A stretch of DNA of 34,963 bases, from assembly GCF_000227725.2 (NCBI RefSeq), contig NZ_MU255056.1:125332-160294 (forward strand), given 5' to 3'. Positions 1,289 to 32,774 of the stretch are shown here, piece by piece. Within the stretch, counting starts at the first letter, position 1. The number at the start of each line of letters is the position of its first letter. Origin of the DNA: Thiorhodospira sibirica ATCC 700588. GTDB taxonomy: Bacteria > Pseudomonadota > Gammaproteobacteria > Ectothiorhodospirales > Ectothiorhodospiraceae. A program made the position numbers and the translations under genes. The notes below the pieces were generated by a model. It made no database searches. It saw only the letters and a list, made by a program, of their open reading frames with translations, and was not told the DNA's origin.

Positions 1289-2397
1289 ATGGGAAGCATC
1301 AAACACTTGGCAGAAGAGGTGGAACGTGGACTGCGCAAGGCCGCATCCGGGGCTGCGCCTGACGGTGGTGAGGAAGCTGTCGCTGGTGGTCGGAGCGATG
1401 ATCGAAGCGCAAACCGCCAACACGGTGGAGTTGGCGAATGTGTTGCCGCTGGAGACCGAGCGCCAAGACATGCGCGAACAGTGGTTGAGACGCTTGCTGA
1501 AGAACCCGTTGGTGTGTCCAACCGACATGATCAAGCCGCTGGCGATGGCCGAACTGGCGCAGGCGGCCCGTCACGATCAGACGGTGTGCCTGAGTCTGGA
1601 TCAAACCGATTTGGGGGATCGGATGGCATTGCGGGTGTTGGCCTTGCGCGTGAGCGAGCGGGCGTTGCCGTTGGTTTGGTGGGCCAGGCAAGGCGCGGCG
1701 AACCGTGGCTTTGCGGGCCAGCAAGCCCTCCTGGAGACGGTGTTGGCTTGGCTGCCGGCTGGGGCGCGGGTGCTGCTGTTGGCGGATCGGTTCTACCCAT
1801 CGGCGGCGCTGTTCGCGTGGTTGCATGCGCACGAATGGGGCTACCGGTTGCGCTTGAAGGGGAATCTGCGGGTGGACACCGGCGTGGCGGAGACCACGAC
1901 CGGGGATTTGGCCAAGGGTGTGCGGGAAGCGTATTTTCCGGGTGTGCGCCTGTTCGCCTCTGGGGTGGTGACCCACCTGGGAATTGTGCATGACCCGGGG
2001 CATCCAGAGCCGTGGATGATTGCCATGGATGCGATTCCGACACGGGCGCGCGTACTGGACTATGCCACGCGCTGGGGCATCGAGCCGATGTTCTCCGACT
2101 TCAAGGGGCGAGGATTATTTGGCTTGGGGGATTCGCACCTGCGCCATGCGGATCGTTTGGAACGCCGGGTGTTGATCATGGCCTTGGCGATGTATGGGTG
2201 TGTGCGCATTGGGCGCGATCAGGCGTGCCACCCTCCGACCCCGCTCGAAAAAAAACCAAGCACAGGACGATCCGAACCACTGGAGCTTCCGCAAGCTCGC
2301 CCGCAGCCTGGTTTCGTGGTTCACACGTGGCTTGCGCTACCTGATGCGCTGTCTGCAAAACGACCTGCCGCTGCCGGCTTTTCGTGCCCGTGAGTAA
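1289..2397 (+). pseudogene. IS4-family transposase with two apparent frameshifts
   Basis: The core is a DDE transposase: first Asp in LSLDQTDLGDR, second in LLLADRFYPSAALF, and the Glu in RWGIEPMFSDFKGRG. The N-terminus that fits best (MGSIKHLAEEVERGLRKA from ATG 1289) is one frame away from the following HPGLRLTVVRKLSLVVGAM, which implies an indel near 1345. Near the 3' end the frame passes an A8 run (2248-2255), after which the family-like tail (NHWSFRKLARSLVSWFTRG, ending at 2397) lies in the +1 frame. Reading A7 would restore it. Without correction, one frame is open from TTG 1260 to 2393 but with foreign-looking ends. The gene is inactive unless slippage at A8 rescues it. Confidence 0.7.
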
Positions 2398-2399
2398 AT

Positions 2400-2414
2400 T
2401 GATAGGTGGTAAGG
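2400..2414. repeat. Right terminal inverted repeat of the IS4-like element
   Basis: TGATAGGTGGTAAGG directly follows the transposase stop region and pairs with 1223-1237 (14 of 15). Confidence 0.75.
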
Positions 2415-2689
2415 TCAGCAAAGCTCATCTGATCCATGGGGCAAATACCGATTGATTGACTGATGAGTGAATTATCGCAAAAATGCGGAGTTATTCAGAG
2501 CTTCCCTAACGTATATGTGCATGTCAATCTGGCAGTGTCCTTATGAGGCCGTCGCAGTAGGAACGCCAGCTACACGATGCCCCTGTATAGTTCTCGAGGT
2601 GCGGTTTTGCCGCATCGGGCTATTCCGCGCAGAGGGTCGTTCTCTCACGCAAGTCCTTAATTTCGCATCCTCTGCATTGTATCAACCGG
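2415..2689. other. Gene-free interval after the IS cluster
   Basis: No convincing coding sequence is seen on either strand. A 79-codon plus-strand frame (2467-2706) has no recognisable motifs and no good ribosome binding site, so I do not call it. The expected other half of the interrupted IS630-like gene is not found here. Confidence 0.5.
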
Positions 2690-2776
2690 CATATGAAACG
2701 CAATAAGCCTCCAATACCCGCCTGTGAGTCTTTCCGATGTCTGTAAAACCATCTGCCATGGCCTGCGTTTCATATG
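2690..2776. repeat. 87-bp element with 13-bp perfect inverted ends
   Basis: CATATGAAACGCA (2690-2702) is repeated exactly in inverse as TGCGTTTCATATG (2764-2776), with 61 bp between. The size and perfect ends fit a very small MITE-like remnant or a long-loop hairpin. It lies 42 bp beyond the stop of glmU. It has no run of T and so does not look like a standard terminator. Confidence 0.5.
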
Positions 2777-2818
2777 GATTGGTGGTCCGTGCTGGTGTGG
2801 GAATTTCACAGGAACGAG

Positions 2819-4231
2819 CTATGCCGATGGTTTTTTGGGGCGTTGCCAGTTGGGGTAGCTGTGTTGGCGGGTGCGGCTGAGGCTTAGGCTGTGGTCGGGG
2901 GCGTCGCGGGTGATGGTGGAGCCGGCGCCGATGGTGGCCTGTGTGCCGATACATACCGGGGCGATGAGTTGGGTTCCTGAGCCGATGAAGGCGCCATCCT
3001 GAATCACGGTGCGGTGTTTAAAGGCGCCGTCGTAGTTGCAGGTGATGGTACCGGCGCCGATGTTGACGGCGCTGCCGATTTCGGCATCGCCTAAGTAGCT
3101 GAGGTGATTGGCTTTGCTGCCTTCGCCGAGGAGGGTGTTTTTGACCTCGACGAAATTGCCGATGTGTACCTGTGCGGCGGTGGTGGTGCCGGGCCGCAGT
3201 CGCGCAAAGGGGCCAATGATACTGTGGGCACCGATGTGGGCCCCTTCAATCACGCTGTGGGCGCGAATCTCAACGCCCGGCTCCAGCTCACTGTCTTTGA
3301 TCACGCAGCCCGGACCAATGACAACCCCATCCCCCAGCCTGACCGTGCCTTCCAGCACCACATTGACATCTATGCAGACATCCTGTCCGGCCAGCACCTG
3401 TCCGCGAATATCAAGGCGGGCGGGGTCACGCAGGCTCACCCCGGCGCGCATCAGGCGGGCGGCTTGCTGGTGTTGGTAGATGCGCTCCAGTTGGGCCAGT
3501 TGCAGGCGGTCGTTGACGCCTAAAAACTGCTCACTGTGCGTCGCCACCAAGGCTGCCGGGTTGGCTTGATCGGCTACGGCCAGGGCCAGGCAGTCGGTGA
3601 GATAATATTCTCCCTGGGCATTGGCGCAGTCGATGCGCGCCAGCCAGTCCCGCAGCGCCTCACTGCGGGCGGCCATGAAGCCGGTGTTGACCTCGGTAAT
3701 GGCGCGTTCCTCGGGGCTGGCGTCTTTGTCTTCGACAATGCGGCAGGGGCGTCCCTGAGCATCGCGCACGATGCGCCCATAACCGCCGGGCTGCGCCAGG
3801 TGCATACTTTGTAATACCAGGGCATGACGTTGCAGCTCTTCCACCAGCAGGCTCAAACTCTCCGGGCTGACCAGCGGCACATCGCCATATAGCACCACCA
3901 CCCGCTCACCATCCCGAATTAACGGCATCGCCTGGGCTACCGCATGGGCGGTGCCGCGCTGTTCGGCCTGCAATACCCATTGCACCACGCCATTGCTCTG
4001 CGTATGGTCAGGCCCAGGCCCGTCGGCAAAGTAGGCGCGCACGGCCTCGGCACCGTGCCCATGCACCACGATGATTTGTGCCGGGTGCAGGCGCTGCGCC
4101 CGTTCCAGCACATGCGCCAGTAGGGGCTGACCGCCAAGAGGATGCAGGACTTTAGGCAGATGCGAGCGCATCCGCGTCCCCTGACCGGCGGCCAGGATGA
4201 TGACATTGAGCGGGGTGGGGGTGTGCATCAT
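2819..4231 (-). CDS. glmU: GlmU, UDP-N-acetylglucosamine pyrophosphorylase / glucosamine-1-phosphate acetyltransferase
   Basis: This bifunctional enzyme of UDP-GlcNAc synthesis acetylates glucosamine-1-P with acetyl-CoA and then joins it to UTP, feeding peptidoglycan and LPS. The N-terminal uridylyltransferase domain opens with [19 protein letters not shown], the nucleotide-binding loop and lysine, followed by YGDVPLV and EVNTGFM. The C-terminal half is a left-handed beta-helix of hexapeptide repeats ([32 protein letters not shown]) and ends with a basic tail. The length, 470 residues, is normal for the family. The start ATG (4229-4231) overlaps the ettA stop in ATGA, so translation is probably coupled to ettA. 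It is the last gene of a minus-strand run; glmS is not in the window downstream. Confidence 0.97.
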
Positions 4232-16736: not shown

Positions 16737-17543
16737 TCATATGCGCAAGCCGCAGTCCTCGTCGGCATAACTGAAGACCTCAATCCCCAGGCGTTGCGCC
16801 ACCGGCAGGGCGCTGGGATGTACCATCGACGAGATGACCAGCTTGCGTTGTACCGGGCGCTGATGTCGCTGCGTGTAATATTGCACCTTACGATCAAACA
16901 GATACATATCACCTTTGGACATGGAGGATTTGAGCTCGCACAAAATGACCAGACCATTTTTGATAAGGATATCCAGCTCAACCTGATCAGGCCGTCCGAA
17001 TACCACCCCCTCATCGTCGAATTCATTGATGTTGAGTACCTCAACTCCAAAGCTTTGCTCCAAAATCCCTTTCAGCGCCTCACGAAAACTGTGCTCCGAG
17101 GCCAAGCCCCAGCGTGCGCCTATCGCACTGATGCCCTGTTCCTGTCGTGAACGCGATTGGCGTATCTCTTCAAGGAGTTTTTGATTAGCTTGATTTTGTT
17201 CATCCCATTTGCGGTTTTGTTCTTCCCACTTGCGGTTCTGCTCATCCCATTTACGGTCTTGTTCGTCCCAGCGGGCGCGTGACTGGCGTATCTCTTCCAG
17301 GAGCCGTTGATTGGTCTGGTTTTGTCCGTCCCATTTACGGTCTTGTTCCTCCCACTTGCGCTTTTGTTCGGCACGATCTTCGGCCAGCTCTCGCAAAAGC
17401 TGTTCAAAACGTAGATCAAATTGCGCGGATGTCAGCGCAGTTTCGCGAATAAGCTGTTCCAGCCAGGCACGAAATGACTGATCCTGACGTAAAATTTCGG
17501 GCAACTCACGTTGTAAATATGTTTTCAGTTCTTCGCCAATCAT
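16737..17543 (-). CDS. DUF3782-like PD-(D/E)XK protein with coiled-coil repeats
   Basis: 268 residues from ATG 17543, which has GGGTGG 8 nt upstream; GTG 17555 is an alternative. Residues about 58-132 are charged heptads of the form WDEQNRK/WEEQDRK, predicting a long coiled coil. The C-terminal domain has the PD-(D/E)XK pattern: E150 region, D191 in VELDILIKNG and E203-x-K205 in LCELKSS. This matches DUF3782/DUF4143-type predicted nucleases common in cyanobacteria and sulfur bacteria. Catalytic residues appear intact. Function is unknown; nuclease activity is inferred from the motif. A 60-bp stretch of the coiled-coil region is duplicated at a 126-bp offset. The gene lies alone between a hydrolase and a glycosyltransferase-like gene on the same strand. 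Confidence 0.75.
   Translation of the reverse strand: MIGEELKTYLQRELPEILRQDQSFRAWLEQLIRETALTSAQFDLRFEQLLRELAEDRAEQKRKWEEQDRKWDGQNQTNQRLLEEIRQSRARWDEQDRKWDEQNRKWEEQNRKWDEQNQANQKLLEEIRQSRSRQEQGISAIGARWGLASEHSFREALKGILEQSFGVEVLNINEFDDEGVVFGRPDQVELDILIKNGLVILCELKSSMSKGDMYLFDRKVQYYTQRHQRPVQRKLVISSMVHPSALPVAQRLGIEVFSYADEDCGLRI
17155..17340 (-). repeat. Intragenic direct duplication in the coiled coil
   Basis: 17155-17214 and 17281-17340 are 60-bp imperfect direct copies, offset by 126 bp (42 codons, 6 heptads). Both encode a form of W-(5)-Q-N-Q-x-N-Q-(K/R)-LLEEIRQSR. The in-frame heptad-multiple offset keeps the coiled-coil register. Confidence 0.75.
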
Positions 17544-17578
17544 CGAATGATCCACCCAATGTGTATATCACGGCTGAT

Positions 17579-30042: not shown

Positions 30043-31416
30043 TTATGAAGTTAAGGTATTTATGATGTGGTTGATTTTGTTTTTTCCGATTTTATTGATT
30101 CGCTGAATTTCTTCGAGGGATTCAAAGGGATGCTTTTTTAAAATTTCTTCGATAACCATTTTATGCACTTTTGCTCTGCTGAGTTTAAAGGCAATTTCCT
30201 TTTTACTTAAGTTGTTAATGGTGATCAGTTCAGGAGGAATGATTGTGGGGATGGATTCCTCAGCATGTATTGATTTTTCGACGGTTTTGGCATTGGCCGC
30301 AGCGGCCTTAGGGGGGATTGGCTGTTCGGTGCTGATGTCATTGGCTTTGGAAAGCTCTGGAGGCATTGGCTTTTCAACGGTCATACCATGTACAAAAGCG
30401 CTGATGCTGCTATAAACATCCTGCCGGATTTGTTCTTTCTGCTCGGCCTTTTGCGGCGCCTGGGGCTTGCTGACAGAATCCTGTGTTTTTTTCGCAGGCG
30501 GCGTGTGATCGGCGCTGTCCTGGACAGGCGGGTCGGCAACAGGCGCTTTTTGTGTATCTGTGGATACGTCGGATAAAAGCGCTTTCAGATGCTTAATCGC
30601 GACCGGGCCAATGCCCTGAACGTCTCGCACGTCCTGCTCGCTCACAAAAGGCTGAGTATCTCTGACTGCAATTAAATTATTGATCTGCTTGGCCTTAAGT
30701 TTCTTGGCGGCTTTGCGGGTCAATTCCTCAAAAGTAATCTGGTTTAATGCTTCAATCCATGCATCCGAGAAAGTAGGCTCTGGAGATGGATCAACCTTTT
30801 TACCTTTATTTTTTTCTCTTTCTATGTTAGCTAACCTATTCTCAATCAATTCTAAGCGATGATCCATTTTGTCGCTAAGCTTGGCGGCTAAGTTATCTTC
30901 CATTTCCTCGAAGCGATTATCTATTTTAGCTTCAATAGAGTTTGTATTATTTTGTAAAATTTTTTGAATTTGATCGATTTTTTCCACCAAGGGTTGCAGT
31001 AATGTTGAAAACATGTTTTGCAGCTCTCTCATGCTAACATTTACAGAACTTTCTTTAAAAGCCTTTGGCGAAGCGCCGTTTTCAGTTTCTGGCTTGATAT
31101 GCGGAGCATGATGACGAAACAACTTTATCTGCTGCTCAATAACATGAGCATTGTCTTCTTCAATTATATAAGCATCAATGCTTTCTCCTTTGATGGGGTC
31201 AATTTCCTTGGCTCTTTTTGCGGAAAAATATTCAAATTCACCGTTGACTAGGTCATATCTTTCAATGCCTTTTCTTTTTACAACCAAAGGATTAATAACG
31301 CCACCACCTTCCAGAATAGACCTGGCTGCTTGCTCAATTTCATCTTTGGAAAAAGTGTTTTCTATGTTCGTATCAATGCTTTTAAATAGAATAATCTTTG
31401 GAGCAACTTTCAACAT
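30043..31416 (-). CDS. ParB N-domain-like protein with coiled coil and two helix-hairpin-helix motifs
   Basis: 457 residues. N-terminal ParB-like domain (about 1-100): IDTNIENTFSKDEIEQAARSIL, INPLVVKR and YDLVNGEFEYFSAKRAKE. The Arg-rich C-motif of true ParB CTPases (GERRxRA) is here GEFEYFSA, so CTP hydrolysis is doubtful. Residues about 127-200 predict a coiled coil (LVEKIDQIQKIL, repeated E/K/R). One helix-hairpin-helix is VRDVQGIGPVAIKHLKALL (about 263-282), another near the end is ESLEEIQRINKIGKNKINHI (432-451); between is a proline-rich linker. HhH motifs bind DNA non-specifically. The gene lies 11 bp after the ParA-fusion gene, so they are almost certainly one operon. The stretch is A+T-richer than its neighbours, suggesting horizontal origin. 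The role (partition, defence, other) is not known. Confidence 0.7.
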   Translation of the reverse strand: MLKVAPKIILFKSIDTNIENTFSKDEIEQAARSILEGGGVINPLVVKRKGIERYDLVNGEFEYFSAKRAKEIDPIKGESIDAYIIEEDNAHVIEQQIKLFRHHAPHIKPETENGASPKAFKESSVNVSMRELQNMFSTLLQPLVEKIDQIQKILQNNTNSIEAKIDNRFEEMEDNLAAKLSDKMDHRLELIENRLANIEREKNKGKKVDPSPEPTFSDAWIEALNQITFEELTRKAAKKLKAKQINNLIAVRDTQPFVSEQDVRDVQGIGPVAIKHLKALLSDVSTDTQKAPVADPPVQDSADHTPPAKKTQDSVSKPQAPQKAEQKEQIRQDVYSSISAFVHGMTVEKPMPPELSKANDISTEQPIPPKAAAANAKTVEKSIHAEESIPTIIPPELITINNLSKKEIAFKLSRAKVHKMVIEEILKKHPFESLEEIQRINKIGKNKINHIINTLTS

Positions 31417-31427
31417 AGCTTATACCT

Positions 31428-32774
31428 TTATATTTTTTGTGAAATCAAGTTAGCCAGCATGGAAAATTCTTCGGATGATTTGGAATGCGGCTTATAGTCA
31501 AAAATAGATCGTGGATCACTCATGTCTAAATCACCTACCTCAATGGTTTGCTCCATGCACTTCACCAGGTCTTCTCGATCATAAATGACAGCATCCATAA
31601 CGGGGAATTTATATCTCTTTTTAATGTTTTCAATGCGATTTGCAAATGTTGAAGACAAAAAACGCGGATTGGTTGAAATTTTATTAGGTAATACACCTAG
31701 TATATTTATTGGCGCAGCACCCGTCATATTTTTAAATCCATCAACTTCTTTGATGAAATTTCTTACATTTTCAAGTCCTTCATTGGCAAATGGCTTGAGG
31801 TCTGATGGAATCACCAAGTGATTAGCAGTAATCAATGCAATGCGTGCATAAAGATCCAAGGAAGGAGGGGTGTCAATCAGGACAATATCATATTTATCTT
31901 GATCTTTCAGTATTTTTTCTTTTAATACCATTCGTGTAAAATCCAGGCGATTTAATTCTTCTTGATGCTCCATCAAACGAATATGCGAAGAAACAACATA
32001 AATCCTGTTGCTGCTATCAAAGCTCGCCTTTTCCATCACCTCTCTAATTGGATAAGTATCACTATAGCGCAAGACATGATAAACATACTTGTCACGCAAG
32101 GTGTCTTTGGCTTCATCACCAAATTTAATCATTCCGGTGCTAAAAGTGGTATTCGCCTGGCTATCCAGGTCAATAATCAGTACCCGTTTTCCTTGGCGGG
32201 CAAAGGCAGCGGCGAGATTAACCACGGTGGTGGTTTTTCCCACGCCACCCTTGTTATGATAAACAGCTACAATCTTCATATTGTGATCTCCTGTGGGTTT
32301 TGGGTTGGATAAACACTGAATCTGCGGTACAGGTTGAGGATTGACGTGTTGCAGTAAAACTTCCCTGCCGATTAATTCTTTCATTTCTTCAATGCGTTGC
32401 ACTAGCTCAGAAGCATGGCAGCGAAAAACAAGATGCACCTTGTATGTACGCTTCTGATAGATCCGAATCTCGTAACCATTGGTGAGAAGGCCATAGCTGA
32501 TATCCAGAACCAGCATATAGCGTTTGAGCTGGTGGTAGGCCGCTTCCAGCACAATTTTAGGGTGCTTGGCTTCAATGATTAACCGGGCAACATTTTTTTC
32601 ATCCGACGGCTGTGGCGCGGCCAAAAAATCCAATCTAAATCGTCGGGTGACTTTCTCCTGTTGCCACATATTGATCTGATAGCCTAAGGCGGGAAGCAGA
32701 TAGCTTACGATCAGTTTGCTTTCTACTTCGCGTTCATTCTTGCAATAGTCTGGATGAAAGCTGACGGTTTCCAT
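31428..32774 (-). CDS. HsdR_N-like PD-(D/E)XK nuclease domain fused to ParA ATPase
   Basis: 448 residues. Residues 1-135 resemble the N-terminal nuclease domain of type I restriction HsdR: E16/E18 helix, D49 in RFRLDFLAA, E68-x-K70 in LIIEAKHPK and Q82 in the QLKRYML motif, so the catalytic set seems complete. Residues 166-448 are a ParA/MinD-type P-loop ATPase: deviant Walker A KGGVGKTT (175-182), LIIDLDSQANTTF (Walker A') and VLIDTPPSLD (Walker B). The start is ATG 32774 with AGGA upstream. An ATG at codon 166 (32279), preceded by AGGAG at 8-nt spacing, could start ParA alone (283 residues). Gene order with the following ParB-like gene is that of a parAB pair. Fusion of a nuclease domain to ParA is unusual. 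Function unknown. Confidence 0.75.
   Translation of the reverse strand: METVSFHPDYCKNEREVESKLIVSYLLPALGYQINMWQQEKVTRRFRLDFLAAPQPSDEKNVARLIIEAKHPKIVLEAAYHQLKRYMLVLDISYGLLTNGYEIRIYQKRTYKVHLVFRCHASELVQRIEEMKELIGREVLLQHVNPQPVPQIQCLSNPKPTGDHNMKIVAVYHNKGGVGKTTTVVNLAAAFARQGKRVLIIDLDSQANTTFSTGMIKFGDEAKDTLRDKYVYHVLRYSDTYPIREVMEKASFDSSNRIYVVSSHIRLMEHQEELNRLDFTRMVLKEKILKDQDKYDIVLIDTPPSLDLYARIALITANHLVIPSDLKPFANEGLENVRNFIKEVDGFKNMTGAAPINILGVLPNKISTNPRFLSSTFANRIENIKKRYKFPVMDAVIYDREDLVKCMEQTIEVGDLDMSDPRSIFDYKPHSKSSEEFSMLANLISQKI
32277..32292 (-). promoter_or_regulatory. Internal ribosome binding site and start codon at the nuclease/ParA junction
   Basis: Reading the minus strand, AGGAG (32292-32288) is followed by 8 nt and ATG (32279-32277), which opens MKIVAVYHNKGGVGKTT, a typical ParA N-terminus. 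It is in frame with the fusion. Either it is a relic of a former separate parA, or it is a working second start. Confidence 0.6.

Follow-up and report, generated by a model that had tools for sequence, protein, structure and literature searches.

A predicted HsdR-type nuclease domain, a ParA ATPase and a ParB-like partner are encoded together in a two-gene cassette of Thiorhodospira sibirica ATCC 700588. Judged from its sequence and those of its homologues, this architecture is real and conserved, and it is not found in the literature searched. An earlier note on this DNA knew of no described system with exactly this architecture. We likewise found no description of a combination of HsdR_N, ParA, and a ParB-like protein, either in full-text literature searches or in the PADLOC library. 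The analysis started from a stretch of 34,963 nucleotides (the window), and the alignments comprised 26 full-length fusion proteins and 27 partners.

Organization of the cassette

The cassette consists of a fusion gene and a partner gene, both on the minus strand and 11 bp apart. The fusion gene (31428-32774) is a single unbroken open reading frame of 448 codons, and the 448-aa product has 26 full-length homologues. In a Pfam scan of this protein, residues 20-112 match HSDR_N_2 (E=2.7e-9) and residues 166-345 match AAA_31/ParA (E=3.3e-51). The earlier note had read the gene, from motifs, as an HsdR_N-type nuclease joined to a complete ParA; both Pfam matches and the uninterrupted reading frame agree with its domain assignment. 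However, it overlooked a probable internal start at M166. Homologues with the same domain order exist, and the detection of HSDR_N_2 in all 26 indicates that the architecture did not arise by chance. The two domains are separated by a linker (residues 142-165; 32280-32351, minus strand), neither the sequence nor the length of which is conserved.

The cassette is flanked by genes for a GGDEF and a DUF190 protein on a 2.94 Mb contig that is otherwise ordinary chromosome. Elsewhere in the window, positions 1-2400 contain transposase-like ORFs on both strands and a 152-base match to an IS701-like Polaromonas element. In the product of an ORF at 16737-17555 (minus strand), KWDEQNRKWEEQ coiled-coil units are repeated ahead of a C-terminal domain that contains an ELK motif. 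This C-terminal domain may be another PD-(D/E)XK nuclease.

The predicted nuclease domain

The nuclease domain spans residues 6-141 (32352-32759, minus strand), and Pfam HSDR_N_2 as well as the related model PDDEXK_3 match it in 26 of 26 fusions. The nuclease domains of the homologues are only 47-60% identical to that of the window. D49, E68, K70, and Y86 are nevertheless invariant in the alignment of the 26 fusions, and Q82 is present in 25. Y86 completes a QxxxY motif together with Q82, and D...ExK...QxxxY is the pattern of HsdR nucleases. E14, E16, E18, and K20 in the first helix are likewise invariant. Thus, the four residues named in the earlier note (D49, E68, K70, and Q82) are in place in the window protein, and its impression that the catalytic residues look intact extends to the D, E, and K of all 26 homologues.

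The fold assignment rests on Pfam profiles. An AlphaFold2 model of residues 1-160 from a two-row alignment reached a pLDDT of 41, and a PDB-chain profile search with the nuclease domain returned weak and mostly unrelated matches, including one HsdR at E=1.6. The conservation pattern supports a nuclease motif that is kept throughout the family and a predicted nuclease that looks intact.

The ParA domain and a putative internal start

The ParA domain covers residues 166-448 (31431-32279, minus strand), and its closest PDB relatives are Soj/ParA proteins. The deviant Walker A motif KGGVGKTT, already recognized in the window protein, is invariant in the 26 fusions. M166 is the first residue of this domain, and its codon is ATG in 26 of 26 fusions despite the variable linker. 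In the window, a Shine-Dalgarno-like AGGAG (32288-32292, minus strand; hybridization energy, -7.4 kcal/mol) lies 8 nt before this ATG (32277-32279). Averaged over 16 genera, the pairing energy with the anti-Shine-Dalgarno sequence of 16S rRNA was -4.4 kcal/mol at M166 vs -1.9 kcal/mol at other internal ATGs (Wilcoxon p=4e-4; 13 of the 16 genera in the expected direction). The strength at M166 was comparable to that at the partner genes' own starts, and an upstream site of -4 kcal/mol or better was present in only 12 of the 26 members. Since the M166 start is kept in all 26 fusions and has Shine-Dalgarno support, a second, nuclease-free ParA product is likely.

The ParB-like partner

The partner gene (30043-31416, minus strand; 457 aa) lies directly downstream of the fusion gene, as it does in every readable locus. 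A ParB_N-type domain occupies approximately residues 1-100 (31117-31416; Pfam ParB_N, E=1.9e-6), and ParB_N was detected in 26 of the 27 homologous partners. Its GxxR motif is replaced by G-E-F-E, and the fourth position is E in 26 of the 27 partners and Q in one. The ParA-binding motif LG[RK]GL occurs in none of the 27, and a ParB helix-turn-helix is not among their listed Pfam matches. Therefore, the description of this protein as ParB-like stands for the ParB_N fold; however, the GxxR arginine, the helix-turn-helix, and LG[RK]GL are absent from all 27 partners. In a survey of ParB-CTPase-fold proteins, the GxxR arginine was mutated as a non-binding control and LG[RK]GL was the ParA-binding motif of ParB (PMC12704722). 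Since the partner lacks all three features, CTP clamp switching at parS is not expected. We conclude that, as predicted from these motifs, the protein does not work as a ParB. A search of the window for parS gave no match at up to 3 mismatches, a threshold that a differing site would escape.

In place of the helix-turn-helix, HHH_3 was found in 9 of the 27 partners and Rho_N in 2. In the window partner, a putative long helix or coiled coil (residues 123-203; 30808-31050) is followed by a first helix-hairpin-helix (residues 219-285; 30562-30762) and a C-terminal, helix-hairpin-helix-like second domain (residues 395-456; 30049-30234), all on the minus strand. The coiled coil comes from a low-confidence AlphaFold2 model (block pLDDT 43-77), and the model of the whole partner, from a two-row alignment, had a pLDDT of 51. 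The first helix-hairpin-helix was modelled at 82-89; its HHH_3 match (E=1e-4) is below Pfam's cut-off, and the family profile also matches ComEA in this region. The second block (pLDDT about 63-69) contains a repeated PF-SLE-IQ--K-IGK pattern that is common to the partner at locus L001. The two most divergent partners (L056 and L059) end in a Rho_N/SAP-like domain rather than a helix-hairpin-helix, which appears to be a swap of small nucleic-acid-binding domains.

Distribution and ancestry

One relative is a Beggiatoa metagenome-assembled genome (L001), which has both genes and a fusion 59% identical over its full length. A whole-genome search with a two-row profile of the fusion found it in 25 of the 43 genomes of the Beggiatoa order. 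One of these (G432) carries two distinct cassettes, one of the standard type (L033) and one fused to RloB (L058). At another locus (L040, in G222), an rdgC-like gene, recognized by eye (2306-3199, minus strand), overlaps the start of the fusion; this was observed at that locus only. Among 47 genomes of the window's own order, the fusion occurs only in the window's genome. With this exception, it was not found outside the Beggiatoa order in 369 sampled genomes of the class or 398 of the phylum; these samples are thin, restricted to Pseudomonadota, and mostly of draft genomes. A second draw of the class largely overlapped the first and was not counted as an independent sample.

The window cassette is a low-G+C island, with 41% G+C vs 57% in its flanks. 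Because of this difference and the lone occurrence outside the Beggiatoa order, horizontal transfer of the cassette is likely. The fusion is thus a feature of the Beggiatoa order, with one probable transfer to the window's genome. The nuclease tree pairs the window with L001 (95/86), and the ParA tree places it on a long branch inside the main clade, where its sisters are not resolved. The genes flanking the cassette are not adjacent in relatives of the same family, and an empty insertion site was not resolvable.

Searches of 72,556 plasmid and 50,697 phage records, and two viral-contig scans, detected no fusion. The matches in the plasmid and phage records were ordinary ParA or stand-alone HsdR_N proteins, and two plasmid matches extending into the nuclease region (H3 and H6) were ordinary ParA/ParB. 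These searches thus lend no support to a plasmid location or to plasmid maintenance, one of the two roles suggested in the earlier note.

Mobility and exchange of modules

Neighbouring genes are almost never common between loci, which places the cassette at unrelated sites. Two loci from one genus (L054 and L055) have cassette DNA that is mostly 87-100% identical up to about partner residue 125; the partner tails are less conserved, and the flanks are unrelated on both sides. In a comparison of L052 with L055 by DNA windows, the flanks, nuclease, and linker are 95-100% identical, identity drops to about 48-80% between a point shortly past Walker A and partner residue 90, and many windows beyond that residue are again 90-100% identical. 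Because identity falls only between Walker A and partner residue 90, the ParA core and the ParB_N domain of the partner were exchanged as one block with the nuclease retained, and we regard this pair as containing a natural recombinant. A tree conflict shows another exchange in L053, the RloB-nuclease half of which groups with L058 and L057 (98/92 and 97/97) and the ParA half with L049, L050, and L052 (100/99). Over all pairs, the similarity of the partner tracks that of ParA more closely than that of the nuclease (partial rank correlation, 0.75 vs 0.42).

Defence genes beside the cassette

A gene for a defence-type ATPase adjoins the cassette in 8 of the 26 loci, 5 with AbiLi and 3 with PDC-M07A. 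The AbiLi-type ATPase is directly upstream; the four that were scanned gave E values from 6e-76 to 2e-83. In three of these loci (L053, L057, and L058), an AbiLii/RloB domain is also fused to the N terminus of the fusion protein; AbiLii matched all three (E from 2e-19 to 1e-24), and Pfam RloB matched the two scanned (E=3e-31 and 5e-26). The position expected of AbiLii is taken by the HsdR_N-ParA gene itself in L033 and L048. In its three loci, PDC-M07A is the gene directly downstream; two of these were scanned, with E values of about 1e-161 to 1e-163. Three further loci retain remnants of it. GmrSD and type ISP restriction genes are found near some loci. AriA/AbiLi-class matches were found for 7 of 118 neighbouring genes vs 0 of 118 control genes, which were drawn from four Beggiatoa-order genomes (Fisher p=0.007, an approximate value because the loci are related).

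The clustering of homologues with defence genes therefore holds for 8 loci; however, 18 of the 26 have no intact adjoining defence ATPase, and the window copy lies amid housekeeping genes. With PADLOC, the window fusion showed no more than weak cross-matches (ParA-fold, nuclease-fold, and Cas4), and the window partner matched nothing. The defence role suggested in the earlier note, in contrast to plasmid maintenance, gained indirect support from the AbiL and PDC-M07 neighbours, the RloB fusions, and the patchy, mobile distribution. Taken together, the gene contexts support a defence association of the cassette.

Comparison with known systems

The cassette resembles ParABS (Soj/Spo0J and plasmid ParA/ParB) in its deviant Walker A ParA, its parA-parB gene order, and the ParB_N of the partner. 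It differs in that its ParA bears a nuclease and its partner has a helix-hairpin-helix or Rho_N instead of the ParB motifs; moreover, the window has no recognizable parS, and two near-complete genomes have the cassette at a distance from dnaA. An N-terminal HSDR_N nuclease with D..E-x-K..QxxxY is shared with Type I HsdR. However, the domain scan revealed no SF2 helicase in the fusion, the motor of which would be ParA, and HsdM and HsdS are not regular neighbours of the loci. The cassettes at L053, L057, and L058 resemble AbiL (AbiLi plus AbiLii/RloB) in having AbiLii/RloB on the fusion polypeptide and AbiLi encoded directly upstream. However, AbiL does not include HsdR_N, ParA, or the partner, and neither AbiLi nor AbiLii/RloB was found at the window locus. 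The PADLOC candidate PDC-M28B matches the ParA part weakly (E=4e-11), but not the nuclease domain or the partner. The partner is also similar to fusions of the ParB-CTPase fold in combining ParB_N with other domains that replace the helix-turn-helix. The main text of the survey of these fusions reports none with a helix-hairpin-helix, and only the DUF3850 fusion is consistently co-encoded with parA (PMC12704722). In contrast, the pairing of our partner with ParA is constant, and ParA itself carries the nuclease.

Proposed explanation and alternatives

Our preferred reading, held with slightly less than even confidence, is that the cassette is a defence-associated two-gene system in which a ParA ATPase fused to an HsdR-type nuclease acts as the effector. 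ATP-bound ParA dimers would sit on DNA, and dimerization would join two nuclease domains so that both strands are cut. Through its coiled coil and its non-specific DNA-binding domain (a helix-hairpin-helix, or Rho_N in two members), the partner would bind ParA and set the place or timing of ATPase turnover, and this control would replace the CTP clamp and parS site of ParB. The M166 start may yield a nuclease-free ParA, which would lower the share of nuclease domains in the dimers. Invading DNA, either phage or plasmid, is the probable target, and in some members the AbiLi-type ATPase may act as an additional sensor or trigger. The window copy was presumably acquired horizontally from a Beggiatoa-like donor. 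We infer the dimer gating and the partner control from what is known of the ParA and PD-(D/E)XK families. The occurrence of a single copy in 25 of the 43 genomes is also compatible with a cellular role and speaks against the defence reading.

Such a cellular role might be chromosome or nucleoid positioning in place of ParABS in the Beggiatoa order, with the nuclease anchoring or trimming DNA. Canonical ParB, scored by TIGR00180 above its curated cut-off in the 43 genomes of the order containing G222 and the Beggiatoa genome of L001, is absent from 42; therefore, ParABS seems to have been lost across the whole order. The ParA/ParB_N pair is what remains, and the lone genome with ParB has no fusion, both of which favour positioning. 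However, 18 of the 43 genomes have no fusion, and nearly all of these also lack ParB. The missing ParB motifs of the partner, the separation of the cassette from dnaA (about 1.4-2.0 Mb in G417 and G416, both near-complete), and the absence of a fixed genomic place also argue against it. Furthermore, the window's genome has a normal ParB of its own, and a cutting nuclease would be hazardous in such a role. We consider positioning distinctly unlikely.

The movement of the cassette between unrelated sites is also what would be expected of a device that serves an integrated mobile element for maintenance or incompatibility; ParA and the partner would tag or shut out related copies, and the nuclease would cleave rivals. 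The exchange of ParA and ParB_N as a block, like incompatibility determinants, and the end of DNA-level similarity close to the two genes fit such a device. We nonetheless regard it as rather unlikely: no integrase, transposase, or replication gene regularly adjoins the cassette, the fusion is absent from the plasmid, phage, and viral-contig collections, and G432 holds two distinct copies. A catalytically dead domain that only binds DNA, giving ParA an extra tether, is very improbable. PD-(D/E)XK folds sometimes serve as non-catalytic domains, and catalysis by the fusion is so far a prediction from sequence; however, all 26 proteins keep the metal-binding D and E, the lysine, and the tyrosine of QxxxY, although about half of the positions in their nuclease domains differ.

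If the defence reading is correct, the cassette might represent a new class of DNA defence, a further step that we regard as doubtful. The ATP-driven dimer cycle of ParA on DNA, rather than a helicase or methylation check, would gate an HsdR-type nuclease. The sensor would be a degenerate ParB whose tail binds DNA non-specifically, and the internal start would set the ratio of nuclease-bearing to nuclease-free ParA.

To our knowledge, the established role of ParA ATPases is the movement of cargo rather than the control of DNA cleavage. The joint exchange of the ParA core and ParB_N and the conserved internal start are directly testable predictions. A conserved ParA-nuclease and ParB-like partner found with abortive-infection genes would link partition dynamics and bacterial immunity, and a ParA-nuclease system would provide a handle on an order that is almost entirely without ParB.
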